Assembly: GCA_026389335.1 (NCBI GenBank)
Contig: JAPLIB010000092.1
Span: 1-64,000, forward strand
Source of the DNA: Cyanobacteriota bacterium
GTDB lineage: Bacteria > Cyanobacteriota > Cyanobacteriia > PCC-6307 > Cyanobiaceae
Reading direction: 5' to 3'
Length of the DNA stretch: 64,000 bases
Below, piece after piece: positions 27,189 to 49,840 of this stretch. The notes below the pieces were generated by a model that searched no databases, was not told the DNA's origin, and worked only from the letters and a program-made list of their open reading frames with translations. The position numbers were made by a program, and so were the translations under genes. Position 1 is the first letter of the stretch. Each line of letters starts with the position of its first letter.

Positions 27189-28289
27189 TCAGCCGATGAT
27201 GGCGGCATAGGCAATCACGACGACATTGACGACGACAAAGCTTGACATATAGATTGGTAGATAAATATGGCGATCCATTCGCTGCGCGAAGTCTTCCCTG
27301 CCGGCTTCGCAGCGTAGATAGGCTGTCATCGCCAGTAGACTACTTGCCAGAATGTAGGCTATGGAGATGATGTGAATCATGTCAGTCAAGGTGACATCTT
27401 CGGAGAGGCCCAGTGTGGCCTCCGTTTGCTGCATGTTCACAATGGCGGCGAACAGGCAGCCCACCAGTAGTCCAGTGCGGCCACTGACGATATCTGGTTC
27501 GCGTACATCCATCAGGAAAGCCATTCCGGCAATGGCCACGGCCGCGTAGACGCCGGCACAAAGTTTCATAAAGCTCGTGATTCGAGCACGGTGCAGGGTG
27601 ATTTCTACCTTGATGCGGCTATAAACTCCCTTGCCATTTAATTTACTATTGGGTTTGCCAAAGTTGGTTTCATAGCTGTGTTCAATTTCAATCAGGTTGA
27701 AGTCCGATGCGATCCAGTCACCATTGTTGATGCTGGGATTGTAGCCTGAATGGGCATAATCGGGAGTTATGACGAAATTCGAAATATCGGATCTGACGCT
27801 TTCAAACTCAAAGGTGATGGTGTGGCGGTCGAAGGGGAAATTTTTGGCAGACCAATTATGGAAAAAGGTACCTTCTAAGGAGCGTTCCGACCAGTACACT
27901 TGTTTATTATCCTGGAAATAGCCCGATTTATTGTCTACTTTTTGCGTGTTTACCTCGCTAATCGTGATATTGTTTGAATTGTGGACGGTGATGTCTTGGA
28001 GTGGTGAATCCTTCGCTGCGGGGCAGATAGTCCAGAGCCGCAATGAAGCGAACAGGCTGCGATCAGCGAATTTGTAATCGCGCAAGTCTTGCAGAAAGAC
28101 GCCCATCACACAGGTGAGCGGTTCGTTCATCAGGCGCATGGGTGCCGCCTGGTTGTCGGCTGGGGCGGCGGGAGCAGCCAGCATCGGCAACACCTGGATC
28201 AACAGCGCCGTCAGCGCGGCAAGGGCCAGGCCGATCCAGCGGCGACTGGCCCGTTCCGGGATGTATCGGCGGCAGCCTCTGGCGTTCAT
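27189..28289 (-). CDS. Pentameric ligand-gated ion channel-like membrane protein
   Basis: A 366-aa protein with a signal peptide (hydrophobic stretch about 18-40) and an extracytoplasmic domain of about 190 residues. It contains VMGVFLQDLRDYKFADRSLF and the pLGIC-like NFPFDRHTITFEFE (about 150-163). Four C-terminal membrane helices follow (about 238-260, 270-290, 300-324, 342-364). The second, RTGLLVGCLFAAIVNMQQ, resembles the pore helix region of bacterial GLIC-type channels. No Cys-loop disulfide is present, as is usual in bacteria. The ATG overlaps the cheR stop as ATGA, so it is translationally coupled to a chemosensory gene. The gene is clearly richer in A+T than its neighbours. Family assignment rests on architecture and short motifs. 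Confidence 0.62.
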   Translation of the reverse strand: MNARGCRRYIPERASRRWIGLALAALTALLIQVLPMLAAPAAPADNQAAPMRLMNEPLTCVMGVFLQDLRDYKFADRSLFASLRLWTICPAAKDSPLQDITVHNSNNITISEVNTQKVDNKSGYFQDNKQVYWSERSLEGTFFHNWSAKNFPFDRHTITFEFESVRSDISNFVITPDYAHSGYNPSINNGDWIASDFNLIEIEHSYETNFGKPNSKLNGKGVYSRIKVEITLHRARITSFMKLCAGVYAAVAIAGMAFLMDVREPDIVSGRTGLLVGCLFAAIVNMQQTEATLGLSEDVTLTDMIHIISIAYILASSLLAMTAYLRCEAGREDFAQRMDRHIYLPIYMSSFVVVNVVVIAYAAIIG

Positions 28290-29575
28290 GGCACCATTCG
28301 GGCCAGTCGTCCTTGGAATTGACGACTGCGTTCAACCTGGCCCAATTGTTTGGTGAGCTGGATCATCGCTTCGAGGGCCTCGCGGGAGTTGGGCTTGAGA
28401 TAGAGGCACTTCTGCAGACAAGCCAGTGCTTCGTCGGTTTGATTACGGCGCTCAAGCAGTTGTCCTAGCCGCAGATAGGTGGCATCTGAATAGGGGTTTC
28501 TCGCCAATTCCTGTTGACATTGTTCCAGTTCTTTGTCCACTTCGTCGGCAGATCCACGCTTGTCGCTGAAGTTGGTCCTGCGTTCCACGGCCTGAGCAGC
28601 AGCTGTTGCCGCTGCAGCGGCGGAGCGCAGGGAGTCCCGCCTGGCTGCGGATTCCAGGGCTTGCGGTTGGCAAGCCGGCCGAGCAGCCCGCTCTGGCCGC
28701 TCGCGGCGGCGGCTGGGCAGGTCGGGGAGGCTGGCGGCAGTGGCTTTCTGCGGCAAGTCGGGCGGCTCGTCTTGCCGCAGAAAGCCAAAGACGAAGGATT
28801 CGCGAATGGGGCTGAACAGGCTGGAAGGTACTTTGCCGGTTTCTGCTGAGCCCACGATCAGCAGTGCGCCTGGTTTCATCAGCGAGGCCAAGGATTGCAG
28901 CAGGTGTTGGCTGGCCGCTTCCTCCAGGTAGATCAAGAGGTTGCGGCAGAAGATCACGTCATAGTGGGTAGCGGTTTCAGCCAGGCAGCTCATCAGGTTG
29001 GCGCACTTGAAGTGCACGATGTTGCGGATTGCCGGATGCAGAGCCAGACCCTGGGGTGTGGTTTGAAAGTTCTGGGCCTTTTCGGCTTCGCTCACGCCCC
29101 GGAACGAATGTTTGCCATAGACGGCCTGGCGGGCCTTGCGGATCGACTGGCGGCAGATATCCACCGCATCAATACGAAAACAATCGGCCGGCAGACCCAT
29201 GTCCAGCAGGGTCATGGCGAGGGAATAGGGCTCTTCGCCGCTGGCGCAAGGGGCGCTGAGCAGCTGCAGAGGCTGGGACGGCAAGCCGCCGGCGATCAGC
29301 GCCTGCATGTGCTTGCGCAGCTGTATGAAGGGCTGGCGGTCGCGGAAGAACCAGGTTTCCGGAACCACCACCAGTTCTACCAGGCACTGTTGCTCCTGGC
29401 TGGACTCCAGCAGTAGCTCCAGGTAGGTCTCGGTGTTGTCTAGGCCTGTGATCTTGAGGCGCTGGCCGATGGCACGTTCGAGGCTGTGACTGCCGATGAT
29501 GCTGGCACTGATGCCGCTGTGGCTCGCCAGCCAGCGGCCGACATTGCTGCTGTCAAGCTTCTGCTTACTGGTCAA
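28286..29575 (-). CDS. CheR-type MCP methyltransferase with TPR C-terminus (WspC-like)
   Basis: A 429-aa SAM-dependent methyltransferase for glutamates of chemoreceptors. The CheR core shows VVPETWFFRDRQPF, LLSAPCASGEEPYSLAM (SAM-binding) and YDVIFCRNLLIYLE. After a Ser/Ala-rich linker (about 280-350) there is a TPR-like segment (YLRLGQLLERRNQTDEALACLQKCLYLKP), the architecture of WspC/FrzF. The likely start is a TTG at 29575, overlapping the cheW stop by 11 bp. It is followed by the channel-like gene with an ATGA overlap. Confidence 0.88.
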   Translation of the reverse strand: MTSKQKLDSSNVGRWLASHSGISASIIGSHSLERAIGQRLKITGLDNTETYLELLLESSQEQQCLVELVVVPETWFFRDRQPFIQLRKHMQALIAGGLPSQPLQLLSAPCASGEEPYSLAMTLLDMGLPADCFRIDAVDICRQSIRKARQAVYGKHSFRGVSEAEKAQNFQTTPQGLALHPAIRNIVHFKCANLMSCLAETATHYDVIFCRNLLIYLEEAASQHLLQSLASLMKPGALLIVGSAETGKVPSSLFSPIRESFVFGFLRQDEPPDLPQKATAASLPDLPSRRRERPERAARPACQPQALESAARRDSLRSAAAAATAAAQAVERRTNFSDKRGSADEVDKELEQCQQELARNPYSDATYLRLGQLLERRNQTDEALACLQKCLYLKPNSREALEAMIQLTKQLGQVERSRQFQGRLARMVP

Positions 29576-30080
29576 AGCCGATCAGGTCGCGGATGGGATT
29601 CACCTGTTCGAGAAGAACCTTGAGATGCAGGATCTGCACCATGCCTCGTTCATCAAGGGTCATGCCCCCCAGGTAGGGCTTACTGCCGGAACTGAGGCCG
29701 ATGTCGTGGAAGGCATTGAGGGGACGGCTGATGGTGTCGGTGACACCTTCGGACAGCAGGCCGATGTATTGATCTCTGTCTTTGCTGTCTCCGGCCGTGA
29801 CCATGATGATGCGACTGCTCAGGTTCTGGCCGCTGGGGCGATTCTGGATCAAAAAGCAGAGGTCGATGACGGGAACCACCACCCCCCGGTAGTTGAACAG
29901 GCCTGAAACATAACTGGGCAGGTTCACCGCAGGCCGTAGCGAAACTCTGGGAATCACCTCCACCACATCCTTGCTTTCCATCGCGTAGAGCGGTCCGCCG
30001 GCGGAGAACAGCAACAGCAGCACCGCTGGATTGGCACTGGCGGTTTTGCCATTCGGAGCGATTGACTTGGACACAGCCAC
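29565..30080 (-). CDS. CheW-like coupling protein (WspB-like)
   Basis: A single CheW/SH3-like domain linking receptor and CheA: LLLFSAGGPLYAMESKDVVEVIP, LPSYVSGLFNYRGVVVPVIDLCFL and GLLSEGVTDTIS fit the family. From the GTG at 30080 the protein has 171 aa. Another GTG at 30074 and an upstream ATG at 30191 are possible, but CheW homology begins about 15 residues after 30080. It is the first gene of the minus-strand arm of the chemosensory locus, divergent from the MCP gene. Confidence 0.85.
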   Translation of the reverse strand: MAVSKSIAPNGKTASANPAVLLLLFSAGGPLYAMESKDVVEVIPRVSLRPAVNLPSYVSGLFNYRGVVVPVIDLCFLIQNRPSGQNLSSRIIMVTAGDSKDRDQYIGLLSEGVTDTISRPLNAFHDIGLSSGSKPYLGGMTLDERGMVQILHLKVLLEQVNPIRDLIGFDQ

Positions 30081-30276
30081 GGGGCTTGAGGAGGCGGTAG
30101 CGGGATCAGAGCAGCTTAAGGGCCCTTCCCTCCGGGCAGCCAAGGGCAGCAAGGAGTGGGTTGGCGCCCATTTGGTAGCGGTGCACACCATCCGCTCGCC
30201 AAGGCTGGCAACGTCCCGTGAGCGTGGGGCTGCGGGGCCACGGGCGCTTAACCTCTAGTGAAATTCCATAGAGCCC

Positions 30277-31971
30277 GTGTCGAGCGAACCCCTTGGCGTC
30301 AAGAAGCAGTCGATGGAAGCGCAGTTAAAGCTGGCTTTTCTCGGCATGGGGGGATTGGCAATGCTGGTGGCGCTGCTGGGCCTGCGCACCACCACCTCCT
30401 TAGGGGGCCACATTCAAGAGTTGGGGGCCAACCGTCTGCCTTCGGTGGATGGTCTCTGGAGGGTCAACGAAGGGCAGACCCAGATTCAAGCCTCCGAAAA
30501 TGCGATTCTTACCCCAGGCGAAACAGAGGCAGGCCGCCAGCAGCAGCTGCGACGTATCGATGGCGCCTGGAAGCAGATCAATGCCGGTTTCAAGCAGTAC
30601 GAGAGCACCGCATCCACGCCGGAAGAACAGAGGCTCTATGCCGACTTCAAGCAGGACTGGGCTGAGTGGGAGTCCGGTCACAAGGAGCTGCTGCGGGCCG
30701 TGAGTGTGCTCGGTAATGCCTCGTTTCCAGCCCCCACCACACCGCAAGGGCGGGCAATCTTTGGCGTTGCGGCCCAGGAGATCAGCTCTTTCACTACTGC
30801 GTCAGATTCACTACTCAAGGTGATCGATCTCAACTACAAGATCGGCACTGAGGCGACGATTAGCGGCGAACAGGATGCCAAAACCTCCCTGTTTTGGTCG
30901 ATTGTGGCCCTGGTAGCGGCCCCGTCGATCGGTTGGTTCGCCGCCAACTATTTCACCCGCACCATTGCCAAGCCCCTCGGTGCTCGCATCACCGAAGTGG
31001 TCACGGTGGCCGAAAACGTGGCCGGGGGAGATCTCACCCGCAACCTGCCCGACACCCAGGATGGCGATGAGCTCGGCAAGCTGCAGAACGCCATTCACGT
31101 GATGGTGGATAATCTCAGCCTGCTGGTGCGCCAGATCCAATCCTCCGGGATCCAGATCACCACTTCCACTACGGAGATCGCTGCCTCCGGCAAGCAGCTG
31201 GAGGCCACGGTGGCCGAACAGCTGGCCTCCACCAATGAGGTGACGGCCACGGCTAAGCAGATTGCCGCCACCTCGATGAACGTGGTGCGGGCCATGGACG
31301 ATGTCAAGAGTCAGGCGGTGGATACGGCCGATTCGGCGGCCCACAGCCAGCAGGATCTCGACCAGATGGAGAAGGTGATGCGCGACCTGGTCACCGCCAC
31401 CGCCGCGATCACCTCCAAGCTGGATGTGATGCACGAAAAGGCCAATAACATCAACACCGTCGTCACCACAATCACCAAGGTGGCAGACCAGACCAACCTG
31501 CTCAGTCTCAACGCCGCGATCGAGGCCGAAAAGGCCGGTGAATATGGCACCGGCTTCGCCGTGGTGGCCCGCGAAATCCGGCGTCTCGCCGACCAGACCG
31601 CCGTGGCCACCCTCGAAATTGAGCAGATGGTGAAGGAGATGCAAGGGGCTGTGTCAATCGGGGTGATGGAGATGGATCACTTCAGCAAAACCGTCACCTC
31701 CGCTGTGGAAGATGTGGTGCGGATCAGTGATCAGGTCGAAGTGGTGATTGAGCAGGTCAAGGGCCTCACACCCAAGTTCGAGATGGTTGGCCAGAGCATC
31801 CAGGAGCAGTCGCAGGGAGCCCAGCAGATCAGTGAGGCGATGCAGCAGTTGAGCCAGGGCTCGCAGCAAACGTCCGATGCCCTGCGGGAGTCCAACCGGG
31901 CTCTCGAAGTGCTTGACGACTCCACCCAGTCCATGCGCACGGAAATCTCCCGCTTCCATGTCGCCAACTAA
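30277..31971 (+). CDS. Methyl-accepting chemotaxis protein (WspA-like)
   Basis: A 564-aa receptor. TM1 is about residues 17-36, a periplasmic helical-bundle sensor domain of about 165 residues follows, then TM2 ([20 protein letters not shown], about 204-223), a HAMP domain and a long cytoplasmic signalling coiled coil. The hairpin tip reads [20 protein letters not shown] and [10 protein letters not shown]. The EKAGEYG form and the gene set around it match WspA rather than flagellar receptors. The GTG at 30277 or the ATG at 30313 may be the start. The stop overlaps the next coding region by 14 bp. Confidence 0.92.
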
Positions 31972-32728
31972 CCTGGACTTTGACCCTGATGTTCTGCATG
32001 CACCGGTCGCACCGGTCAGCACGGAGCTATCGCCATCGCTGCTGAATGATTGCTGGAATCGTATCGGTGTCTTCGGCGATCGCTCCTGTCCGGAGTTGCT
32101 CAGCTGCGTTCACTGCCGCAATTGTCAGGTGTATTCGGCGGCAGGCCGCAGCCTGCTGGAGCGTCTGCCGCCCAGCGATTATCTGCAGGAATGGACTGCT
32201 GTTCTGGCCGAAACCAAACGCGGCTCCGAGAGCTCCACGCTCTCGGCCGATGGCTCGGTGGTGCGCAGTGATCAATCCCTCTCGGTGATGATCTTCCGCC
32301 TCGCCACCGAATTGTTCGCCTTGCCGGTGGGCGTGTTCCTGGAGGTTTCGGCTCCGTTCGTGGTGCACTCGGTGCCACGCCGCACCAACCAGCTGTTTCT
32401 GGGCATGGTGAATGTACGTGGTGAAATCATGCTGGCCGCCTCCCTCACCAATCTGCTGGGTCTCACGGTTCAGCCCAGTGTCGGCTCCCATGGCGCAGGC
32501 AGAATGGCGGTGGCAGGTGCCCCCGAGGGCAAGTGGGTGTTCCCCATCGATGAGATTTATGGCATCTACTTGTTCAATCGTGATGATGTCAAGCCTGCAC
32601 CTGTGGTGATCACCAATGCTGATCACTCCTATACCTGTGGTGTTTTCCAGTGGCAGAACCGCTCGGTGGCGCTGCTTGATCCCGATCGCATCTTCCAGGC
32701 ATTGACCATCGAGATCTCTCCGGCATGA
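31958..32728 (+). CDS. CheW-like coupling protein with Cys-rich N-terminus (WspD-like)
   Basis: A 256-aa protein. The N-terminal block [17 protein letters not shown] and [15 protein letters not shown] contains a Cys cluster typical of WspD proteins. The CheW domain follows ([58 protein letters not shown]). The ATG at 31958 lies inside the 3' end of the MCP gene. The stop overlaps the cheA start as ATGA. This second CheW strengthens the Wsp assignment. Confidence 0.87.
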
Positions 32729-34956
32729 GCGACCATCTTTCCGACGCGACTCCGCTCGAACTGTTCCGGTTAGAACTTGAAGAACGGGTCGAGTCTCTCA
32801 ATCAGTCGCTGTTGTTGCTGGAGTCCCAGCCAAGGTCACGCGAGGCCTGTGATCAGGTGATGCGCTCGCTGCATTCGGTCAAGGGTGCGGCTGGCATTGT
32901 GGTGCTGCCGTCCCTGGTGAAGGTGGCCCATCGGCTGGAAGATTTCTTCGTTGCCGTCAAGAATGCCGAAGCCTCGCTCGATCCACAGGCTTTTGCCATC
33001 AGTTTCCGTTGCGTGGATCTGTTCCAGGATGTCAGCCGGCTGCAGGCGGATGAAATTCGCGAATGGCTGGCGGCCCGCAGCCCGGAGCTCGATGAGCTGG
33101 TCGACTCTTTGATTCAGTTACTGCCGGAAGGCAGCATTTCCACTCCGGCACCGCGCGCCATCGCCGCTGAACCTGAAAATCCTTTCGGTGTAGCGCTGGA
33201 GGCCGCCGTCGCGACGCCGTCGGCTGCCGATCGGGTGGTGCGCGTTGAGGCTGAAAATCTCAATCGCATCATGGCGCTCTCCGGTGAAATGCTGGTGGAG
33301 GCCAAGTGGCTACAACCGTTCGCCGATTCGCTCAGCCTGCTTAAGGATCGGCAGAAGGATCTGCAGTCCACGATTGAGTCGTTGCGCCTGCAACTCACCG
33401 AGTCTGGTCAGAGCACCAGCCTCGAGCTGGTGGAGAAGGCTCGCGTCAAGGAGCGCGAATGCCGTGAAACGCTCACCGAGCGGCTGGGGGAACTGGAGCT
33501 CTATGCCCTGCGCACCACCAACCTCTCCTATCGCCTCTATCGCGAAGTGATCGGTTCCAACATGCGCCCCTTCTCCGATGCGATCGTCGCCTTCCCGCGC
33601 ATGGTGCGTGATCTGGCGATCAGCCTCGGGAAACAGGTGCAGCTGGAGGTGGTGGGCAAAGGCACCCTGGTGGATCGCGACATTCTGCGCAAACTTGAAT
33701 CGCCTCTGACCCATATCCTGCGCAATGCGGTGGATCATGGCATTGAATCGCCGGATGAACGACTAGAAGTTGGTAAGCCTAGTCGGGGCACGATTCGTAT
33801 CGAAGCCCTGCACCGTGGTGGCATGTTGTCGATCACCATCAGTGACGATGGGATGGGCGTGCGCTTCGCCGAAGTGCGCCAGAAGCTGGTGGCCGAAGGG
33901 CTGTTCAGTGCCGACGACGCTGACAACCTGTCTGAGGCCGAACTCTGCGAGCATCTCTATCAACCGGGCTTCTCCACCGCTCCAGCCGTCACCGAGGTTT
34001 CGGGACGGGGTGTGGGACTCGATGTGGTGAGCTCGATGGCCAGTGAGGTGGGCGGTACGGTGCGCTTCTCCTCGGTGCTGGGCGAGGGCACCAGCATTCA
34101 CTTTCAGCTGCCGCTCACCCTTTCTGTGGTGCGCACGTTGTTGGTGGAGATCGCTGGAGAGCCCTATGCCTTCCCCCTGGCTCGACTCGATCAGATTGTG
34201 GCGATTGAAACCGCTGACATCAGTGTGATGGAGGGGCGTGAGTGTTTCTTCCTCGATGGTGTTTCAATCGGCTTGATTTCCTCGCGCCAGGTGATGCATT
34301 TCCCCGAGGCTCCCCAGAGCGACGGCCCGATTCCGGTGGTAGTGATCAGCGACCATGCCAAGGTGTATGGCGTTGTCGTTGACCGCTATCTCGGTGAGCA
34401 GGATCTGGTGGTGCGTCCGCTTGATCCACGCCTGGGCAAGGTGGCCAACGTCAGCGCTGCCGCCTTGATGGGAGATGGCCAGCCGATTCTGATTGTTGAC
34501 ACCGTGGATCTGGTGCGCTCGATCGATTCGTTGCTGCAGAACTCCGGTCTGCAGAGCCAGTCCGCCCGCAAACCGGCCAAGCAAGGCCAGCGCATCCTGA
34601 TCGCCGACGACTCCCCGGTGGCGCTGGATCTGCAGGCACGGCTGGTCAGCTCCAAGGGCTACACCGTCGATCGGGTCGTCAATGGCATGGAGGCCTGGAA
34701 GGCGATCCGCGACGGCAACTATCAGTTGCTGGTGACAGACGTGGAGATGCCGGAAGTGGATGGCATCGCCCTGGTGCAGACCCTGCGCAAAGAGCCCCGC
34801 TTCAAGCATCTGCCGATCATCATCTCCTCCTCCCGCGATGCCGAACAGGACCGCCTGCACGGCATGGAGGCTGGCGCTGACTACTATCTTGTCAAGAGTA
34901 GTTTTCAGGGCCAGACCCTGTTGGATGCCATTCATCAACTGATCGGACCCGCTTGA
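32725..34956 (+). CDS. Hybrid chemotaxis histidine kinase CheA-REC (WspE-like)
   Basis: A 743-aa kinase with an Hpt domain (phospho-acceptor His50 in MRSLHSVKGAAG), a dimerisation segment and an HATPase (HILRNAVDHGIESPDER, SDDGMGVRF, SGRGVGLDVV). A CheW-like regulatory domain (TLSVVRTLLVEIAGEPYAFP) and a C-terminal receiver domain from about residue 623 (RILIADDSPV, phospho-Asp near 672 in LLVTDVEMPE) follow. The built-in receiver is characteristic of WspE-type kinases. No P2 domain is evident. It sits between the WspD-like gene (ATGA overlap) and cheB (10-bp gap). Confidence 0.93.
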   Translation: MSDHLSDATPLELFRLELEERVESLNQSLLLLESQPRSREACDQVMRSLHSVKGAAGIVVLPSLVKVAHRLEDFFVAVKNAEASLDPQAFAISFRCVDLFQDVSRLQADEIREWLAARSPELDELVDSLIQLLPEGSISTPAPRAIAAEPENPFGVALEAAVATPSAADRVVRVEAENLNRIMALSGEMLVEAKWLQPFADSLSLLKDRQKDLQSTIESLRLQLTESGQSTSLELVEKARVKERECRETLTERLGELELYALRTTNLSYRLYREVIGSNMRPFSDAIVAFPRMVRDLAISLGKQVQLEVVGKGTLVDRDILRKLESPLTHILRNAVDHGIESPDERLEVGKPSRGTIRIEALHRGGMLSITISDDGMGVRFAEVRQKLVAEGLFSADDADNLSEAELCEHLYQPGFSTAPAVTEVSGRGVGLDVVSSMASEVGGTVRFSSVLGEGTSIHFQLPLTLSVVRTLLVEIAGEPYAFPLARLDQIVAIETADISVMEGRECFFLDGVSIGLISSRQVMHFPEAPQSDGPIPVVVISDHAKVYGVVVDRYLGEQDLVVRPLDPRLGKVANVSAAALMGDGQPILIVDTVDLVRSIDSLLQNSGLQSQSARKPAKQGQRILIADDSPVALDLQARLVSSKGYTVDRVVNGMEAWKAIRDGNYQLLVTDVEMPEVDGIALVQTLRKEPRFKHLPIIISSSRDAEQDRLHGMEAGADYYLVKSSFQGQTLLDAIHQLIGPA

Positions 34957-34966
34957 GCAGCGCCAC

Positions 34967-35983
34967 TTGAGAATCGCGATTGTTAACGATCTGGCCCTGG
35001 CGGTCACGTCGATGCGCCGGGTGCTTGAGCATGAGGGACGTCACAGCGTCGCCTGGGTGGCTCGCGACGGCCAGGATGCCCTGGCGCGCTTCGTGGCCGA
35101 TCAGCCCGATCTGGTGCTGATGGATCTGGTGATGCCCCTGCTGGATGGGGTGCAGACCACCAAGCGCATGCAAGCGATCTCGAAATGTCCGATTCTGATC
35201 GTCACCGCCGATGCGGGCCGCTCGTCGGGGCAGATTTTTGAGGCCATGGGCTACGGCGCCCTCGATGTCGTCAACCTGCCCGTTCTCACTGAGCCGCCGG
35301 AGGTGAGCGGCCGCCAGCTGTTGCAGAAGATCGCCACGATCGAGCGTCTGCAGGGCCGATCCGGCTCCGTGCCCCGTCCGGCCCGCCCCGGGGCCGGGCC
35401 CACCCCGGTGGCCCGCCGCCGTCCGCCCCTGATTGCCATCGGTTCCTCCACCGGCGGCCCCAAGACCCTGGCCACGGTGCTCGCTCCTCTGCCCCGCCAG
35501 ATGGGTCATGCCGTGGTGGTGGTGCAGCACATCGATGCCCAGTTCGCCCCCGGGCTGGTGAGCTGGCTCGATGGCCAGATTGCGCTGACGGTGCGTGGCG
35601 CCGAAGTCGGCATGACCCCCCAGGCCGGCACCGTGTCGGTGGCGATCAGCAACGACCATCTGGTGATTCAGGCGGACGGTCGCTTTGCCTATCAGGCCGA
35701 GCCGCTGGAGGAGCCCTACCGCCCTTCGGTGGATGTGTTCTTTCGCAGCCTGGTGAAGCACTGGCGCGATCCCGGACAGGCGGTGCTGCTCACCGGCATG
35801 GGCCGTGATGGTGGCAAGGGGATGCTCGAGCTGCGTCGCGCCGGCTGGCACACCATCGCCCAGGACGAGGCCAGTTGCGCTGTCTACGGCATGCCGAAGG
35901 CGGCGGTGGAGCTCGGTGGTGCGATCGAAGTGCTGCCGCCGGAGGCGATCGCCAGGAGCCTGGGTCAGCGGCTTTCCCGTTAG
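34967..35983 (+). CDS. Chemotaxis methylesterase CheB (WspF-like)
   Basis: A 338-aa protein with an N-terminal receiver (phospho-Asp53 in LVLMDLVMP) and a C-terminal methylesterase. The catalytic Ser is in IAIGSSTGGP (about 160-161), the His in VVVQHID (188), and the Asp in TGMGRDGG. The receiver begins MRIAIVNDLALAV, where the usual acidic pair is Asn-Asp, as in WspF. In Wsp systems it resets receptor methylation. The start is a TTG at 34967. It is the last chemosensory gene; no diguanylate cyclase of WspR type follows. Confidence 0.92.
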   Translation: MRIAIVNDLALAVTSMRRVLEHEGRHSVAWVARDGQDALARFVADQPDLVLMDLVMPLLDGVQTTKRMQAISKCPILIVTADAGRSSGQIFEAMGYGALDVVNLPVLTEPPEVSGRQLLQKIATIERLQGRSGSVPRPARPGAGPTPVARRRPPLIAIGSSTGGPKTLATVLAPLPRQMGHAVVVVQHIDAQFAPGLVSWLDGQIALTVRGAEVGMTPQAGTVSVAISNDHLVIQADGRFAYQAEPLEEPYRPSVDVFFRSLVKHWRDPGQAVLLTGMGRDGGKGMLELRRAGWHTIAQDEASCAVYGMPKAAVELGGAIEVLPPEAIARSLGQRLSR

Positions 35984-36218
35984 GAGCCTGCTGAGGGTGC
36001 TTCAGCGGTCGCTTGGCCAGTGCGCTGGCACCGTTCCGTTCTGGCAGGTTCCTTGACCTGGTGTCCCAGGGAGCCAAGGCTGCCGCTGGCGCGCCCTGGA
36101 CGGCGTTGCCCTCAGGCGGGAACTCCGATCGGCTGGCGAAGTGTTCACCGCGAACCTAAGTGCGGTCAGGCAGTGGGATAGAAGCAGGGGTTGTGATTCG
36201 TTCGCCAGCGCCGGCTTG

Positions 36219-37724
36219 ATGGCTTCTCTTCTTTTGGATTCTGCCCAGGCCGAGCTGCAGTGCCGCGAGTTTGATCTGGTTTTCCGCCTGTTTGATGCCG
36301 ATGGCGATGGTGAGATTTCCGTGGCGGAAACTGAGCGGGCCCTGGCCAACCTGGCCGGCAGTCTCTCCAGCGAAGCCGGTGCCGAGCTCCTGGAGCTGGC
36401 CCGTCAGCAGGGCCAGATCGACAGCCATCAATTCGCTGTCTGGGCCATGGGCCAGGGGGGCTTCGATCTCAGCCACAATCTGCGCGAAATCTTTGATCTG
36501 GTCGACAGTGACGGCAGCGGCTGCCTGAGCCTGGAGGAGATGGCGGTGATGCTCTCGGTGTTCGAAGACAGCCCCGATGCCCAGCGCCTCGAGGCCCTGA
36601 TGCGGTCCCATGACGCGGACGGCAGCGGCACCATCAGTTATGACGAATTTCTGAATGTGTTGCTCGGCAATGGCGACCTGGCCATCTCCCTGGCCGATCT
36701 CAAGCGCCTGAAGAAAACGCTGGTTCATTACAGCAGCAGCAACCGTTGCGCTCGGATCGGCCTGGTGGAGGTGGATTGTGATCTCGGCGCCGGCATCCCG
36801 GGGGCAGGCGCCGGCATCGAGATGCTCAAGCAGGCGGCCCAGCGCCAGAAGGATCTGCGCCGCATCCGCGATCAGCTGATCGAGGAGATCAGTCAGCAGC
36901 AGCAACCCCGGGCCCGCTCCAGTGAAACCAGCGGCGGTGGTGACAGCACCCCCCATGCCCGCCACATCAAGGTGATTGCCGAGGTGATGGGGCAGGCGGC
37001 CGAGCTGGTGGCCGCCACCCGCGAGCGCGGCCTGTTCCCGGTGGTACTGGCCGGCGACCATTCCACCGCCGCCGGCACGATCGCCGGCCTGCGCCGCGCC
37101 CATCCCGACAGCCGCATCGGCGTGGTGTGGATTGATGCCCATGCGGACATCCATTCGCCCTACACCACGCCCTCGGGCAACATGCACGGCATGCCGCTGG
37201 CGGTGGCCACCGGCCACGACAACGCCCATCACGCCATCAACGCGCCGGCCGCGGACACCACTGAATTGTGGTCCTGGTGCCAGAGCCTCACCGGCACTGG
37301 CACGCCGGCGATCCAGCTGCGTGATCTGATCTACGTCAGCGTCCGCGACACCGAACCGGCGGAGGAGGCGACGATCCGCGACCACGGACTGCCGATTGTG
37401 AGCACCGAAGAGGTGCGCCGCATCGGTGGGGAGGCGGCCGCCCGGCGCTGCCTCGACTACCTCGCCGACTGTGATCTGATCTATGTCAGCTTCGACGTTG
37501 ACAGCATGGATGCCACGGTGTTCAAGGGCACCGGCACGCCGGTGCTGGGCGGGCTCTGGGCCCATGAAGCCCTGGAGATCAACCGCACCCTGCTGCGTGA
37601 TCCGCGTGTCTGCTGCTGGGAGATCTGCGAGATCAACCCCCATCTCGACACACTCAATTCCCTGGCTGAGGTGTCGCTCGGCATCTATCAGGGCGTGCTG
37701 GAAGTGCTGGAGGAGCGGCTGTAG
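36219..37724 (+). CDS. Arginase/ureohydrolase-family enzyme with three N-terminal EF-hands
   Basis: A 501-aa fusion. Residues 26-37 (DADGDGEISVAE), 96-107 (DSDGSGCLSLEE) and 132-143 (DADGSGTISYDE) are three complete EF-hand loops with all calcium-ligand positions filled. Residues about 178-501 form a ureohydrolase: AGDHS (His281), WIDAHAD (Asp306, His308, Asp310), SGNMHGMPLA and SFDVDSMD (Asp426, Asp428), together the full binuclear manganese site. Arginase (arginine to ornithine plus urea) fits best because a urea transporter follows; agmatinase or guanidinase is not excluded. The ATG at 36219 is preferred to one at 36141. It is 235 bp after cheB on the same strand. Confidence 0.9.
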   Translation: MASLLLDSAQAELQCREFDLVFRLFDADGDGEISVAETERALANLAGSLSSEAGAELLELARQQGQIDSHQFAVWAMGQGGFDLSHNLREIFDLVDSDGSGCLSLEEMAVMLSVFEDSPDAQRLEALMRSHDADGSGTISYDEFLNVLLGNGDLAISLADLKRLKKTLVHYSSSNRCARIGLVEVDCDLGAGIPGAGAGIEMLKQAAQRQKDLRRIRDQLIEEISQQQQPRARSSETSGGGDSTPHARHIKVIAEVMGQAAELVAATRERGLFPVVLAGDHSTAAGTIAGLRRAHPDSRIGVVWIDAHADIHSPYTTPSGNMHGMPLAVATGHDNAHHAINAPAADTTELWSWCQSLTGTGTPAIQLRDLIYVSVRDTEPAEEATIRDHGLPIVSTEEVRRIGGEAAARRCLDYLADCDLIYVSFDVDSMDATVFKGTGTPVLGGLWAHEALEINRTLLRDPRVCCWEICEINPHLDTLNSLAEVSLGIYQGVLEVLEERL

Positions 37725-37733
37725 CTCATCGAG

Positions 37734-37757
37734 CACCAGCACCAGCACCAGCACCAG
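37734..37757 (+). repeat. Hexanucleotide repeat after the arginase-like gene
   Basis: Four perfect copies of CACCAG in the 135-bp gap between the EF-hand arginase and the EF-hand urea transporter. No terminator-like hairpin is obvious in this gap, so the two genes may be co-transcribed. Confidence 0.85.
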
Positions 37758-37859
37758 CGAGGCCTGGCCACGGTTTTTCTGCCGCGCTGTTGTCATGCCT
37801 CGCTGCGACGCAGCCGCGCTGGACATGGCCCATGCTTTTGCTCTCTGTCCGGCCGTGCC

Positions 37860-39512
37860 ATGTCCCCCGGTTCCCCCCCGCTGCCTGCCCACGAGCTGCT
37901 GCAGGGCTTTCTGGCCCCTGAGCCTGCGGCGCCGTCGCGGCTGGAGCGGCTCCTGCCCAGCAGCGGCACCCTGCCCGGCCTCACCCGTCTGGGGGGCCAT
38001 CACCCCCTGGCGCACACGCTCGTGGGCTGGTTGCGCAGCTGCGGCCAGGTGATCTTCATCAACAACCCACTCAGCGGTCTGCTGCTGTTGCTGGCACTGG
38101 CGTTGCAGTCGATCGGGGCCGCGGGGCTCACCCTGCTGGGCATCGTGGCGGCCCACCTCTGCGCCCGGGCCATCGGCGCCGATCGCCAGGCGCGGCGCAA
38201 CGGCATCTACGGCTTCAACGGCGCCCTGGTGGGCAGTGCGGTGGCGGCCCTGGCTGATCACGGCTCGGCGGCTCCCTCCCTGGGCTGGGTGTTGTTGACG
38301 CTGGTTGGGGCCGGCGTCACCACCCTGCTGGTGCATGGGCTGGGCCGCTGGCTGCTGCGCCGTTTCGGTCTGCCGCCGCTCACCCTGCCCTTCTGTCTGG
38401 TCACCTGGGCGCTGCTGCTGCTGGCTTCAGCTCTGGCTCACCCCCAGCTGAGCCTGCTGCAGGCCACCCAGCCAGAGGCGGTGAGGGGCCCGCTGCTGGC
38501 CCTGCTGCAGGCCTTGCCCAGGGGCTTCGGCCAGGTGTTCTTGTTACCGGGTTTGCTCAGCGGCGCGGTAGTGCTGCTGGCGGTGGCGATCGCTAGCCCC
38601 CTGGCGGCCCTGGTGGGCCTGGCCGGTGGCCTGGTGGGGGGTGTCACCGGCCTGCTGCTGGGGGCGCCGGCCGCAGCCGTGGCCCAGGGCCTGTGGAGCT
38701 ACAACGGCGTGCTGTCCGCCATCGCCGTGGCCGGGATTTTCTATCCCCTCAATCGCCTCAGCCTGCTCGCCGGGCTGGGGGCGGCGGCGCTCTCCAGCCT
38801 GTTGACCCTGCCGCTGGCGGCCTTGCTGGGCCTGCTCACGGGCGCGGCCCAGCCGTTGCCGCTGCTCACCGTGTCCTTCATCGTCGCCACCCTGCTGACG
38901 CTGTTGCTGCTGCGCCGGACCCAGCCGGCTCTGGTGCCGGTGGGCCTGCATTCGATTCTCACCCCGGAGGAGCATCGCCGCCGCTTTGATGTCGCCCGCC
39001 GCCTGATGCTCGATTTTCGCCGTCAGTTGCGCGGCTCCCTGGCCGGGGATCGCTATCCATCGCTGGTGGCCCAGGCTGAGCCGGCGCAGGTGGCGGAGCT
39101 GGAGGCGTTGTTTGCGTCGCTCGATCGAAACCACGACCACTGCCTCAGTGTGGCCGAACTGGCCAGGGGACTGGAGGGCAGCGCCGCGGGCCCCGGCGTG
39201 GGGGGTGAGGAGCTGGCGGCAGTGCTGGCGGCGATCGATCTCGACGGCGACGGCCGCGTTGATGCGGTGGAGTTCAGTGAGCTGATGCTGCGGCTGCGGC
39301 GCCTGCGTGCCGGTGAGGAGCGGCTCCTGCAGTACCTGCTGCCGATTGATGGCGATGGCAATGACTGTCTCGATCCGGCCGAACTGAACCGGCTGCTGCG
39401 CAGCGTCGGCCAGCCGCCCCTGGAGCCCCGGGAGCAGCACCACCTCTTCGGTGCTCAGGCCCAGCGGGGCCTGAGCTGGAAGCAGTTCATCGATCGCCTG
39501 CTGCTGATCTGA
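37860..39512 (+). CDS. Urea transporter (UT family) with three C-terminal EF-hands
   Basis: A 550-aa protein. Residues about 60-350 are the duplicated UT fold: QVIFINNPLSGLLLLLALAL and GIYGFNGALVG in the first half, and VFLLPGLLSG and LWSYNGVLSAIAVAG in the second. This is a passive channel-like urea carrier. From about residue 405 there are EF-hand loops at 422-433 (DRNHDHCLSVAE), 460-471 (DLDGDGRVDAVE) and 497-508 (DGDGNDCLDPAE). The first and third have Asn/His/Cys at some positions but keep the main acidic ligands. UT proteins normally have no EF-hands. Pairing with an EF-hand arginase implies coordinated urea production and passage under calcium control. Confidence 0.88.
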   Translation: MSPGSPPLPAHELLQGFLAPEPAAPSRLERLLPSSGTLPGLTRLGGHHPLAHTLVGWLRSCGQVIFINNPLSGLLLLLALALQSIGAAGLTLLGIVAAHLCARAIGADRQARRNGIYGFNGALVGSAVAALADHGSAAPSLGWVLLTLVGAGVTTLLVHGLGRWLLRRFGLPPLTLPFCLVTWALLLLASALAHPQLSLLQATQPEAVRGPLLALLQALPRGFGQVFLLPGLLSGAVVLLAVAIASPLAALVGLAGGLVGGVTGLLLGAPAAAVAQGLWSYNGVLSAIAVAGIFYPLNRLSLLAGLGAAALSSLLTLPLAALLGLLTGAAQPLPLLTVSFIVATLLTLLLLRRTQPALVPVGLHSILTPEEHRRRFDVARRLMLDFRRQLRGSLAGDRYPSLVAQAEPAQVAELEALFASLDRNHDHCLSVAELARGLEGSAAGPGVGGEELAAVLAAIDLDGDGRVDAVEFSELMLRLRRLRAGEERLLQYLLPIDGDGNDCLDPAELNRLLRSVGQPPLEPREQHHLFGAQAQRGLSWKQFIDRLLLI

Positions 39513-39588: not shown

Positions 39589-39646
39589 GCTAATGAGAAT
39601 CGCTTGCAAAAAGCCGATCAGGCGGTTATGTTGCGAGACATTCTCA
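39589..39646. promoter_or_regulatory. Two Fur-like operator sequences upstream of the Crp-type gene
   Basis: GCTAATGAGAATCGCTTGC (39589-39607) matches 13 of 19 positions of the classical Fur box. TGCGAGACATTCTCA (39632-39646) has a perfect ATTCTCA half-site and a GAGA-CAT-TCTC core. Both lie 120-180 bp before the Crp-type gene, which abuts iron-transport genes. Binding is inferred only. Confidence 0.5.
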
Positions 39647-39647
39647 A

Positions 39648-39698
39648 CAAGTCGCCCTGGCTGTCAAGTCGCCTTGGCTGTCAAGTCGACTTTGCTGT
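39648..39698 (+). repeat. Three tandem 17-bp direct repeats upstream of the Crp-type gene
   Basis: Copies at 39648-39664, 39665-39681 and 39682-39698, of the form CAAGTCGCCCTGGCTGT with one to three mismatches. They directly follow the Fur-like site. They may be binding sites for a regulator or a slippage duplication. Confidence 0.85.
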
Positions 39699-39769
39699 TT
39701 GGCGCTCGCTGGTCTCGCTCCCTGGGCGATGGCCTTGCGGCGGTTTCTCCGTTGTCCTCTCCTGATCCC

Positions 39770-40363
39770 ATGAGCCTTCGTTGCCGGTCGTTCGATTCCC
39801 AGGCCATCGTGCGCCTGGCCGCCGGGCAGGCGTTGTTGATTGATCCGGCGCTGCGCCCCGCCGGCAGCACCCTCGAGGTGCTCGCAGGCGTGGCCCGAGT
39901 GTTCTGTCCCTGTGAGGAAACCGGCGGCATGACCCTGGCCTTCCTGCAGAGCGGCGACCATCTCTGCGGCGATCGCCTCTGTAGTGAAGGGGTGTGCGTG
40001 GAGGCGTTGACGCCCCTCAGCTTTCGCAGCGAGGCCGAACCGCTTCAGGGTCAGGGGTTTGATGCGGTCAATGAGTGGACATTGCAGTTGCTGCGCATCC
40101 GCCATCTCGGCAGTGCCGAGCAGCGGCTCCATGCCTTGCTCAGCCTGTTGGTGCGGCGTCTGGGCCGCCGCTGCGGCCCCTGGTGCGACCTGCCGTTCCG
40201 GCTCACCCATGACCGCCTCGCCGAGCTGATCGGCACCACCCGGGTGACCGCCACCCGCTTGATTTCGCGCATCCGCCAGGAGCAGTTGCTGGTGGTGCCC
40301 AGGGATCAGCCTGGTCTGCTGCTGGCCCCGGCTCTGGTGGAATCGGCGCCCCTGGCGGCCTGA
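39770..40363 (+). CDS. Crp/Fnr-family regulator with cysteine-rich sensor domain
   Basis: A 197-aa protein from the ATG at 39770. The N-terminal jelly-roll domain has six cysteines (about 5, 46, 48, 66, 71, 76) in VARVFCPCEETGGM and LCGDRLCSEGVC, more than cAMP- or 2-oxoglutarate-sensing members have. The C-terminal HTH is FRLTHDRLAELIGTTRVTATRLISRIR. Placement beside futB/futA and behind Fur-like sites suggests iron-linked control, possibly with metal or redox sensing; this is inference. The open frame extends 59 codons upstream through the operator region, so the longer start is unlikely. The 3' end overlaps futB by 58 bp, convergently. Confidence 0.83.
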   Translation: MSLRCRSFDSQAIVRLAAGQALLIDPALRPAGSTLEVLAGVARVFCPCEETGGMTLAFLQSGDHLCGDRLCSEGVCVEALTPLSFRSEAEPLQGQGFDAVNEWTLQLLRIRHLGSAEQRLHALLSLLVRRLGRRCGPWCDLPFRLTHDRLAELIGTTRVTATRLISRIRQEQLLVVPRDQPGLLLAPALVESAPLAA

Positions 40364-44941: not shown

Positions 44942-46090
44942 TCAGCCGAATCCTTTGCCGGCATCCCTGGCGACACAGGCCTGCAGTTGGCGGCGCAGGG
45001 CGGCATGGTCGAGGCCCTTGCCGATCAGCACCAGCTGGTTCTTGGGGGCCGCAGGCCAGTCGCTGTCGTCGATCGAGAAACGCTTGCCGGCGAGGTGAAA
45101 GATGTGGCGCCGCTCGCTCTCGTTGAACCAGAGGATGCCCTTGGCGCGGAACACCCCTGCGGGCATCTGGTTGTCGAGAAAGTTCTGAAACTTGCGCAGG
45201 GCGAAGGGCCCGTCACTCTGGAAGGAGAGGGAGGTAAATCCTTCGATGGCCTGGTGGTCGGGCTCGGTGCCGTGATCATGCCCGTGATCGTGGTGATGGC
45301 CATGTCCGTGCTCCGCCTGCCCGTGCTCTGCATGTCCGTGCTCCGCATGTCCCTGCTCTGCATGCCCGTGATCGTGGCCGTGATCCCCGTGTCCGTGATC
45401 CTCGTGCTCGTGCTCGTGCACGCAAACGCCATGGTCGTGGTCGCAGCTGTCATGGCTCTGCTGGGCCACCACTTTGTCGCTCTCGAACAGCCCCACGCTC
45501 AGCAGCAGCGGCAGGGGCACCTCCCCTTTCACCGAGCGCAGGATGCGGGCTTCGGTCTTGATCGTCTTTAGCTGGGTCTCCAGCTCGACCAGCCTGGCTT
45601 CCTCCACCAGGTCGCACTTGTTCAAGAGGATCATGTCGCTGTAGACGATCTGGGCGCGGGCCACCTCGCCCTCCAACACCTCATCGCCGAAGTTCTCGGC
45701 ATCCACCAGGGTGATGATCGAATCGAGGCGGGTGAGATCGCGCAGGTCGCTGCCCAGGAACGTCATCGCCACCGGCAGGGGATCGGCCAGGCCGGTGGTT
45801 TCCACCACCAGATAGTCCACCTTTTCGGGCCGCTCCAGGATCCGGTAGACGGCCTCCAGCAGTTCACCGTTGATCGAGCAGCAGATGCAGCCATTGCTCA
45901 GCTCCACCATGTCTTCGCCGGTGGCCACCACCAGCTCGTTGTCGATGCCGATCTCGCCGAACTCATTCACCAACACGGCCGTTTTGAGGCCCTGCTGATT
46001 GGTGAGGATGTGGTTAAGCAGGGTGGTCTTGCCGGCCCCGAGGAAGCCCGTCAGGATCGTCACCGGCAAGGCGGTGTTGACCGGGTCCAT
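44942..46090 (-). CDS. CobW/COG0523 metallochaperone GTPase with His-rich loop
   Basis: A G3E-family GTPase. From the ATG at 46090 the Walker A GFLGAGKTT is at residues 15-23, the metal motif CICC at 68-71, ETTGLADP and NKCD at 157-160. Between the GTPase and C-terminal CobW domains there is an extreme His-rich segment (about 213-279) of HGHAEH/HDHGHD repeats that should bind several metal ions. COG0523 members deliver zinc, cobalt or nickel; Zur-linked ones are zinc chaperones, and a Zur-like gene lies 4 kb away. ATGs at 46147 and 46267 are alternative starts. Confidence 0.88.
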   Translation of the reverse strand: MDPVNTALPVTILTGFLGAGKTTLLNHILTNQQGLKTAVLVNEFGEIGIDNELVVATGEDMVELSNGCICCSINGELLEAVYRILERPEKVDYLVVETTGLADPLPVAMTFLGSDLRDLTRLDSIITLVDAENFGDEVLEGEVARAQIVYSDMILLNKCDLVEEARLVELETQLKTIKTEARILRSVKGEVPLPLLLSVGLFESDKVVAQQSHDSCDHDHGVCVHEHEHEDHGHGDHGHDHGHAEQGHAEHGHAEHGQAEHGHGHHHDHGHDHGTEPDHQAIEGFTSLSFQSDGPFALRKFQNFLDNQMPAGVFRAKGILWFNESERRHIFHLAGKRFSIDDSDWPAAPKNQLVLIGKGLDHAALRRQLQACVARDAGKGFG

Positions 46091-46371
46091 CACGGCCGCA
46101 GGGGTGGGGGCGGAAAGGCTGCTGGAGCCGGAGTTGGTGGGGGACATGCGGTGCAGGGGCGCTGGCGAGGGCGAAGGCAGGGGACGGGAGGCATGGGCGT
46201 CAGGCCAGGGACGCTGAGGCCGGGAAACGCGAGTCTGGCGAGTGGGCGCTCGCGGCTGAGGCGCCATGCGGTGATCAAGGCGTTGCGCTGGACAGCACCC
46301 AGTGTTTGATCGCGGCGGCCCGGCGCTGCCGTTGCTTCGACATTAAGCAGGCCGATGGCGATCGCCGTGGC

Positions 46372-48196: not shown

Positions 48197-49840
48197 TCAC
48201 TCAGCTACCAAGTTGCGATCGGCGAGGGGAATGGCCTTCTGGTGCAGTCGCTGCACCAGTCGGGCCAGCAGGGCCCGTTCGGCCGCTTGCTGCTGGCCGG
48301 CCTGGCAGATCAGCAGCAGGCTGATGGTGATGCCCTCTGGGGTCACGGCCTTGATCCCCCGCAGCTGGGGCGGTTCAAGCAGCACTCTCCCCCAGTTGGG
48401 ATCCGCCGCGAACCGGGTCGCCTCCGCCTCCAGCAGGGCCAACACCCGTGGCAGCTGGCGCACGGCGTGGGAGAGCACCAGCTGCAGCTCCACCCCGGAG
48501 CGCAGTTTGGTGTGGTTCACCACCTTGCTGCACTCACTGTTCTGAATCACCACCACCCGTTGATCGAGGCAGCGCAACTCGGTGCTGAGCAGCCCGATGT
48601 CGAGCACTGCGCCCGTGAAGTCATGGATCTCGACGGTGTCGCCGATGGCATAACGATCGTCGAAGAGCAGCACCAGCCCGGAGACGAAATCCCGCAGCAG
48701 CCCCTGGAACACGATCGCCAGGGCGCCGAGCAGGGCGCCACTGGCCAGCAGGGCGCTGCCGGAGAGTTCGGCCACCCCCGGCAGTTCGCTGAGGATCCAC
48801 AGGCCCACCGAGGAGATCACCACCAGATCGATCAACCGCCGGAACACCAGCCGCAGGCTGAGGAAGCGTTGATCGCCGCGGGCGCGCCGCGCCACCGGCA
48901 CATCGACATTGCCGGCCCACTGCCGCAGCAGCAGCTCCGTCAGCCCCTTCAGCGCGGTGTTCACGATCCAGCCCAGGATCAGCTTGGCGGTGATGCCCCA
49001 GGGCTCCAGCAGCAGATCAAGGGCCCGGGGTACTTGGCCGGGAATGGCGAAAAGGGCCACCCCGGCCATGGCGAAGATCAGGGTGAGCACGGTGGCCATC
49101 AGGCCACGGCTGAGGTACTGCAGGGCATGCAGCCGCAAACGCTGGCGCCGCGTGCAGCGGCCCAGCTCCAGGCGCCCCTCCTGGCGCCGCAGCTGATGGC
49201 GGCTGAGGCGCCAGAGGCTCAGCACCACGGCGATCGCGATCGCCAGCCCCAGCTCCGCCTTGATCACCAGGGCGAGCCGCCGCCGCAGGTTCTCGGGACG
49301 CATCAGCTCGCGGGCGAAGCGCAGCCGCCGTTCGAGCAGGCTGCGCCAGCGCTGCGCCAGGCGGTCCGCACCCATGCCGTTGAGGTGCACGTCCTCGTCA
49401 GTGACGGTGAGCAGGGGCAGGGGCTGGGCGCGTCCAGGCACCAGGGCCACGAGTCGGTTCGGCCCGCTGCCATCCCGCACCACCGCCACCTGCAGGGCGG
49501 CGGGATCACCGAGCAGGCCGAGATTGTCGCTGTCACAGGCCCGCTCCTGGCCATGCAGGAACCCCTGCTCCAGGAAGGTTTCGGCCAGGGATTCGCCGCC
49601 GCTGCAGATCTGGCGCCGCTGGTAGAGCAGGGCCAGGTTGCCTTCGATCACCTGGGCGCGGGTGCTGGCATCGGGCCCCTGGCCGTCGCCCGCCACGGTG
49701 GGGGCGGCCACGGTCAGCACGGGCACGCCCAGGATCCGCACCTTGGCCAGCTGGAAGCTGCCGGCACCACCAGCGTTGCTGTCGCCGGTGTGGGGGCTGG
49801 TGCCCGGGTTGCCCAGCGCGGCGGGGCTTGCCACCGGCAC
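48197..49840 (-). CDS. MscS-family mechanosensitive channel with periplasmic N-domain
   Basis: A 547-aa protein. The N-terminal part (SFQLAKVRILGVPVLTVAAP, VIEGNLALLYQRRQICSGGE) is a soluble domain seen in cyanobacterial MscS proteins. Then come helices (AELGLAIAIAVVLSLWRLS, RGLMATVLTLIFAMAGVALF and others), the pore-lining segment ASGALLGALAIVFQGLLRDFVSGLVL and the MscS beta domain YAIGDTVEIHDFTGAVLDIG. It should relieve turgor on osmotic downshock. From the GTG at 49840 the protein lacks an export signal for its N-domain. A signal-peptide frame lies directly upstream in another phase (see next entry), so the coding sequence is probably frameshifted. Confidence 0.82.
   Translation of the reverse strand: MPVASPAALGNPGTSPHTGDSNAGGAGSFQLAKVRILGVPVLTVAAPTVAGDGQGPDASTRAQVIEGNLALLYQRRQICSGGESLAETFLEQGFLHGQERACDSDNLGLLGDPAALQVAVVRDGSGPNRLVALVPGRAQPLPLLTVTDEDVHLNGMGADRLAQRWRSLLERRLRFARELMRPENLRRRLALVIKAELGLAIAIAVVLSLWRLSRHQLRRQEGRLELGRCTRRQRLRLHALQYLSRGLMATVLTLIFAMAGVALFAIPGQVPRALDLLLEPWGITAKLILGWIVNTALKGLTELLLRQWAGNVDVPVARRARGDQRFLSLRLVFRRLIDLVVISSVGLWILSELPGVAELSGSALLASGALLGALAIVFQGLLRDFVSGLVLLFDDRYAIGDTVEIHDFTGAVLDIGLLSTELRCLDQRVVVIQNSECSKVVNHTKLRSGVELQLVLSHAVRQLPRVLALLEAEATRFAADPNWGRVLLEPPQLRGIKAVTPEGITISLLLICQAGQQQAAERALLARLVQRLHQKAIPLADRNLVAE

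Follow-up and report, generated by a model that had tools for sequence, protein, structure and literature searches.

Two adjacent genes for urea metabolism, both carrying putative calcium-binding domains, lie on the forward strand of the window, i. e. the 64,000-nucleotide stretch of contig JAPLIB010000092.1 from a member of the Cyanobiaceae (assembly GCA_026389335.1). The first encodes an arginase-type ureohydrolase that begins with a domain of four EF-hands, and the second, which follows on the same (+) strand after 135 bp, encodes a channel of the urea transporter (UT) family with EF-hand loops at its C-terminus. Both genes recur as neighbours in related genomes far more often than expected by chance, and the ligands of their EF-hand loops are conserved. 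Judged from these sequence data, there are roughly even chances that they constitute a calcium-responsive urea module.

The EF-hand arginase and the EF-hand urea channel

The arginase gene (36219..37724) encodes a protein of 501 residues. Its longest open reading frame (ORF) starts from a GTG at 36141, and the ATG at 36219 agrees with the relatives. A Pfam search placed the catalytic domain in PF00491 (165.2 bits, cut-off 22), preceded by an N-terminus that matches EF-hand_1 with an E value of 2.7e-19 and in three stretches above the Pfam cut-offs. From the sequence and the alignment of relatives, three canonical loops were assigned, namely loop 1 (DADGDGEISVAE, 36294..36329, residues 26-37), loop 3 (DSDGSGCLSLEE, 36504..36539, residues 96-107) and loop 4 (DADGSGTISYDE, 36612..36647, residues 132-143). 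The AlphaFold model (predicted local distance difference test score, pLDDT, 82.8) contains eight EF-type helices that make up four EF-hands, the second of which, formed by helices 51-64 and 69-77, is without a canonical loop. The N-terminus is a four-EF-hand domain with three canonical loops and one degenerate one.

The catalytic domain (36753..37688), delimited by alignment and structure comparison, harbors a binuclear metal site and an SGNMHG loop. All six metal ligands are present: H281, D306, H308 and D310 are kept in all 84 rows of a comparison with relatives, and D426 and D428 in 83 of these, the exception being a row at a contig end (three of the rows represent one and the same Moorena gene). 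The arginase fold is apparent from a comparison with the Entamoeba arginase 5zee by VIA-align, which re-ranks the structural matches of Foldseek itself (Z 38.6, root-mean-square deviation 2.2 over 291 residues); the structure alignment comprised 32 sequences. The ureohydrolase with complete metal site and three intact N-terminal EF-hand loops that had been proposed in a first-pass annotation of the window is thus borne out.

The same holds for the channel (37860..39512, 550 residues), for which three C-terminal EF-hand loops had been claimed; PF03253 and EF-hand_7 both match above their cut-offs. The channel domain (38028..38912, residues 57-351) covers profile positions 4-291 of 292 in PF03253 with 227.1 bits against a cut-off of 25, and the sequence clearly matches solved UT structures, while the threshold of the yut equivalog TIGR03441 is not reached (159.7 bits versus 274.6). 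The tail matches EF-hand_7, a model of an EF-hand pair, with 42.6 bits against a cut-off of 30, and its three loops, again assigned from the sequence and the alignment of relatives, are DRNHDHCLSVAE (39123..39158), DLDGDGRVDAVE (39237..39272) and DGDGNDCLDPAE (39348..39383). In the first of these, position 6 is occupied by His instead of the usual Gly. A conserved block at the very C-terminus of the tail looks like a degenerate fourth EF unit. This unit is not confirmable from the AlphaFold model of the channel, which was too weak (pLDDT 63.7) and was discarded. Enzyme and channel alike seem to bear a calmodulin-like domain of equal size, made up of four EF-hands with one dead loop and placed at the front of the former and at the end of the latter.

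Matches to EF-hand_7 (PF13499) are found at three places in the 4.05 Mb genome that contains the window, all inside the arginase and channel genes. Among 201 genomes of the family, 62 have some match to this model and 52 have one above the cut-off; the 26 top-ranked rows sit in genes of the arginase or channel family. One further genome (G148) without a UT domain match encodes a frame of about 220 residues that resembles only the EF tail of the channel (L071, 8653-9324), which may be a remnant or a stand-alone EF protein.

Conservation of the loops was analyzed for 16 arginases and 25 channels, leaving out the arginases of G005, L082 and L083, the arginase remnant of G076, as well as the channel pieces of G023, G198 and G148. 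Loop position 1 is Asp in 14 of 15 arginases for the first canonical loop and in all 16 for each of the other two, and in 25, 24 and 24 of the 25 channels for their three loops, respectively. At positions 1, 3, 5 and 12, a usable ligand is found in all sequences, or all but one, for each loop, with departures confined to G141 and the Burkholderiales rows. The key loop columns (1, 3, 5, 8 and 12) show a mean identity of 0.85 in the arginases and 0.81 in the channels, compared to 0.49 and 0.57 for the other columns of the EF domains. Ratios of nonsynonymous to synonymous substitution rates (dN/dS) from four genome pairs were 0.10-0.32 for the EF domains, 0.12-0.13 for the catalytic domain and 0.23-0.49 for the channel domain. 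Together, ligand conservation and dN/dS support Ca2+ binding as a selected property of these domains, whereby they do not tell sensing apart from structural binding.

Pairing, spacing and descent

Among the 201 family genomes, 11 carry the arginase lineage. Eight of these genes are whole and include the EF domain, whereas three are eroded: in G075 the EF part is spread over two reading frames, in G005 it is lost, and in G076 only a remnant of the gene is left. In all 11 genomes, the channel gene adjoins the arginase on the same strand. UT family genes occur in 18 genomes, counting one split gene (G023) and one fragment (G198), so that seven genomes, these two included, have the channel only and none has the arginase only. 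A co-occurrence test that had been set beforehand by the first-pass annotation accordingly turned out far above chance, with a Fisher probability of 7.8e-14, which becomes 1.9e-12 when the remnant is scored as absent; both figures ignore ancestry.

The intergenic stretch of the window (37725..37859, + strand) contains a short CACCAG repeat; nine relatives have a gap of 1-4 bp or an overlap. In G106, G195, G045, L078 and the Burkholderiales metagenome-assembled genome (MAG) L080, a channel start codon lies 1-4 bp past the arginase stop, and in G141, G101, G075 and G005 an ATG of the channel overlaps this stop; the remaining gaps amount to 99 bp (G163), 56 bp (G062) and at least 81 bp (L077). 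Such tight or overlapping spacing fits an operon, from which we infer that arginase and channel are expressed on one transcript.

To look beyond the family, named genomes were scanned and the best 80 loci retained, so that carriers may be missing; eight of these loci hold the arginase lineage. These belong to Symploca, a Pleurocapsa MAG, two Burkholderiales MAGs, Cyanobium, a record labelled as Bifidobacterium, Moorena with an interrupted gene, and a cyanobacterial MAG with an EF-less enzyme (L082). Six of the eight genomes also encode a UT protein, while none was found in Moorena, nor in one Burkholderiales MAG whose arginase contig soon ends. Within the stretch around the arginase, a UT gene is present only at L077, L078 and L080 among these 80 loci. 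A phylum sample of 386 genomes added G387, in which arginase and channel are located on different contigs, and G516, with the same interrupted Moorena arginase and no UT found. Overall, the two genes are unlinked in three cyanobacterial genomes (G387, G538 from Symploca and G541). In the Pleurocapsa MAG G543, the arginase runs off a contig end and the channel starts near the start of another contig, so that the two may be linked or not. All four of these channels (G538, G543, G541 and G387) retain three canonical EF loops.

One Burkholderiales MAG carries a tightly linked arginase-channel pair, the channel of which retains one of three canonical EF loops. Out of 320 Burkholderiales genomes, only the query genome itself reached an E value of 1e-40. 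As a nearby gene for a Clp-type ATPase fits a proteobacterial contig, a rare transfer, albeit not proven, is likelier than mis-binning. Very probably, by contrast, the record labelled as a Bifidobacterium breve MAG (L077, 1-9280) is mislabelled or mixed; it contains an EF-arginase 81% identical to that of the window as well as an EF-channel. No UT match was found in 72,556 plasmid records, nor any arginase match at 80% query coverage (434 were partial), and none of 109 pattern matches on viral contigs was related to the arginase alignment.

The first-pass annotation had also stated that neither family usually carries EF-hands, and where tested this is the case: in the 72 other arginase relatives among the best 80 loci the profile match sets in only past the EF part, and the five UT proteins inspected outside the EF clade have no EF loop. 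UT genes occur in five of 15 tested genomes with EF-less arginase relatives, and the three of these proteins that were inspected have no EF loops. The only Bacteroidetes UT protein scanned by Pfam (L215, 8295-10490) is fused to an M23 peptidase domain and has no EF tail; UT frames of 693-741 residues are present in other genomes.

In a midpoint-rooted arginase tree, whose EF-less rows comprised 15 of the 72 other relatives together with L082, L083 and L167 (G005 was left out), the EF-bearing rows form one clade with a support of 100/100. L082, which is EF-less, and L083, which is interrupted, both fall inside this clade, so that the most parsimonious history is a single gain of the EF domain followed by two or more losses. 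The EF channels likewise form one clade against the five EF-less UT proteins (support 95/95), although long branches meet at this point. Channels that lack an arginase partner branch from within the paired ones, with G132 and G175 beside G005, where the arginase has lost its EF part. From this nesting, it seems that the arginase decays before the channel.

Proposed mechanism and competing explanations

The calcium-gated urea module suggested in the first-pass annotation is supported in part by these data. According to the proposed mechanism, the enzyme would cleave urea off L-arginine and leave ornithine, the channel would let urea equilibrate across the membrane, and a cytosolic urease would convert urea into ammonia and CO2. 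Enzyme and channel would hence act on one presumed urea pool, fed from arginine inside and urea outside the cell. A rise in cytosolic Ca2+ would be read by both EF domains, switching enzyme and channel on together and raising the supply of urea from both sources in one step. The persistence of EF-less catalytic domains in relatives suggests that the EF domains are sensors appended to catalytic and channel domains that were already complete. In Anabaena, a nitrogen step-down is reported to be followed five to six hours later by a rise in intracellular Ca2+, and Ca2+ is connected with nitrogen metabolism through an EF-hand protein (PMC7065334). This Ca2+ rise prompted the proposal that both proteins are switched on by calcium, which may affect the activity of the arginase or the opening of the channel.

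The substrate of the enzyme is probably L-arginine. The arginase-type active-site loop TTPSGNMHGMPL is kept, and the structural matches listed are arginases. The agmatinase model TIGR01230 remains far under its cut-off (50.9 versus 174.3 bits), and a separate ureohydrolase is encoded elsewhere in the same genome (contig C103). Moreover, the EF-less relative L085 adjoins genes for an arginyl-tRNA synthetase and an amino-acid permease, which favors arginine; an ORF of like size, compared by size only, lies at the equivalent place in L086, L088, L101 and L126. Evidence for an in vivo role on agmatine, guanidine or another guanidino compound instead of arginine comes from the positions equivalent to N130 and D183 of ARG1, which in animal arginases read the amino-acid end of the substrate. 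Here, they are occupied by His in all 84 and by Glu in 83 of the 84 relative rows, respectively, a mark that is common to the EF-less relatives, nearly all labelled as Bacteroidetes or as Bacteroidetes genera. The enzyme also falls short of the rocF equivalog threshold (TIGR01229, 200 versus 227.6 bits). Yet Glu in place of Asp183 is a conservative change that preserves the carboxylate, and we consider such a divergent substrate unlikely. PDB entries titled as N130A and D183N arginase mutants are among the structural matches.

Besides the clade-wide N130H and D183E exchanges and the missed rocF threshold, several observations weigh against a calcium-responsive module of arginase and channel. 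The arginases of G005 and L082 have no EF domain while their channels retain EF loops, and in the Moorena gene (L083, 5962-7967) the EF part is broken by an in-frame stop and lies several hundred bases away from the catalytic part. Joint control is consequently not universal. Channels also occur alone, both in the seven family genomes mentioned above and in G323 and G527 of the phylum sample, which have an EF-channel without the EF-arginase lineage. No NtcA-type site (GTAN8TAC) was found within 400 bp upstream of the arginase at 13 loci. The curated cut-off for cyanophycin synthetase was passed in only one of the 201 genomes (G032), which has neither gene, so that no link to this enzyme emerges. 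Finally, besides the co-occurrence figures, the parallel divergence of catalytic and channel domains is uncorrected for ancestry: the correlation of r 0.93 (91 comparisons among 14 of the 15 carriers in both alignments, G075 with its incomplete EF domain being dropped) is expected for genes that travel together, but also for plain vertical descent.

Alternative roles of the pair have to be weighed against this background. Two unrelated EF-hand fusions that came to lie side by side by chance would agree with flanking genes that vary between genera, but the distribution, with the pair recurring in every one of the 11 family carriers as well as in a Burkholderiales MAG, contradicts this explanation, the probability of which is negligible. 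Somewhat more attention is merited by a relief valve, the reading of the first-pass annotation, in which Ca2+ would activate the enzyme and open the channel to release the nitrogen of surplus arginine as urea, while ornithine is kept. The pairing of enzyme and channel would suit this function, as UT proteins are passive channels that allow flux in either direction. Of the 26 genomes with arginase, channel or both, however, 25 encode urease alpha, the exception being one Burkholderiales MAG, so that internally made urea would normally be consumed and feeding urease is at least as likely as urea outflow. As only carriers were compared, this count indicates that urea use is possible and does not link urease to the pair. 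A loss of nitrogen would also be unexpected in nitrogen-limited cyanobacteria, and we thus regard the relief valve as improbable.

Similarly doubtful is a purely structural or docking role, in which permanently bound Ca2+ would stabilize both proteins or hold the enzyme at the channel in a urea-channelling complex that is not switched. The presence of EF domains in both members and the parallel divergence of the two families would be in line with this role. On the other hand, EF-less catalytic domains persist in G005 and L082, arginase-less channels retain their EF loops, and the profile match begins past the EF part in the 72 other relatives among the best 80 loci. In addition, the genes are apart in three genomes (G387, G538 and G541). 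This makes a complex that depends on co-translation less likely, but leaves room for a shared signal as assumed for the calcium-responsive module. Conceivably, though with a low likelihood, the module could take the form of a calcium-gated metabolon, in which a Ca2+ signal would cause the EF domains to bind to one another or to a shared partner, so that the arginase docks at the channel mouth and both are opened together. If this were true, it would represent a bacterial channel whose gating depends on a calmodulin-like domain within the same protein and which is coupled to a likewise controlled enzyme, with the urea supply of the cell being set post-translationally by calcium.

Genomic context and relation to known systems

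The pair is flanked in the window by genes for CheB and a Crp-type regulator, and also for an ABC permease and a solute-binding protein. Elsewhere, its flanks encode an ABC ATPase (G106), a radical SAM protein (G062), a MutY-like protein (G141) or a Fur-type regulator (G005). Among the flanks compared, no conserved neighborhood between genera was found beyond the pair itself, and near relatives such as G106, G195 and G045 have flanks in common. Directly upstream, a chemotaxis-type cluster (28286-35983) encodes CheR with TPR, two CheW, a methyl-accepting protein, a hybrid CheA and CheB. The Crp-type regulator (39593-40363) just downstream of the channel has a weak match to cyanobacterial PtrA (45 bits versus a cut-off of 300), and the ABC permease and solute-binding protein genes lie beside it on the opposite strand. 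A CobW-family GTPase with a CobW_C domain (44942-46267) is encoded 5.4 kb downstream of the channel; no hypA/hypB pair was detected among the scanned neighbors of the arginase. An MscS-type channel gene (48197-49840) is located about 9 kb from the pair and another one (L181, 11347-12522) adjoins the unlinked EF-arginase of G387, which may be a coincidence. The genome that contains the window (G000) furthermore has four cyanophycin-synthetase-like matches of 171-423 bits on contigs C43, C59 and C149, under the cut-off of 850; matches in this range were listed for few of the 201 genomes.

In a literature search by title and abstract, mostly without subscription papers, neither an EF-hand arginase nor an EF-hand UT fusion nor their pairing was found. 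The pair is apparently undescribed, while its two parent families are already known, as are sensor-responder fusions with EF-hands. To our knowledge, no member of the arginase or UT family is calcium-gated. With RocF and ARG1, the enzyme has in common the fold, the six metal ligands and the SGNxHG loop, but it differs by the N-terminal four-EF-hand domain, by His and Glu at positions 130 and 183 of ARG1, and by scoring below the rocF cut-off. Likewise, the channel has the full channel domain of UT transporters (PF03253; e. g. 3k3f and 8blo), and unlike the solved bacterial and mammalian proteins it bears a C-terminal EF-hand tail and scores below the yut cut-off.

Another point of comparison is the guanidine hydrolase GdmH, which yields urea. 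GdmH is a Ni-dependent enzyme of the ureohydrolase family, to which the window enzyme also belongs, and hypA/hypB Ni-chaperone genes are the context named for GdmH-related enzymes (PMC11399263). The EF-hand arginase, in contrast, has no hypA/hypB among its scanned neighbors, with the CobW-type protein being 5.4 kb away, and it possesses an arginase-type active-site loop.

Parallels to the calcium-binding parts can be drawn with two EF-hand proteins. CSE of Anabaena, described as the sole known Ca2+ sensor of this organism, is an EF-hand protein tied to the balance of carbon and nitrogen in cyanobacteria and in this respect resembles the pair, but it is a small stand-alone protein, whereas the EF domains of the pair are fused to an enzyme and a channel (PMC7065334). 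Calredoxin combines four EF-hands with an effector domain and thus follows the same sensor-responder principle, although it is green-algal and its effector, a thioredoxin, is unrelated to arginase or UT proteins (PMC4911631).

The targets of bacterial Ca2+ signals are largely unknown, and the pair offers two effector genes with EF domains of their own, which are neighbors and both relate to a single metabolite, urea. Its recurrence in some small cyanobacteria suggests that calcium signals control the urea supply of the cell. Hence, in unicellular cyanobacteria a possible Ca2+ control of nitrogen metabolism, to which CSE is tied in Anabaena as a separate sensor, becomes directly testable with two purified proteins that combine sensor and responder.

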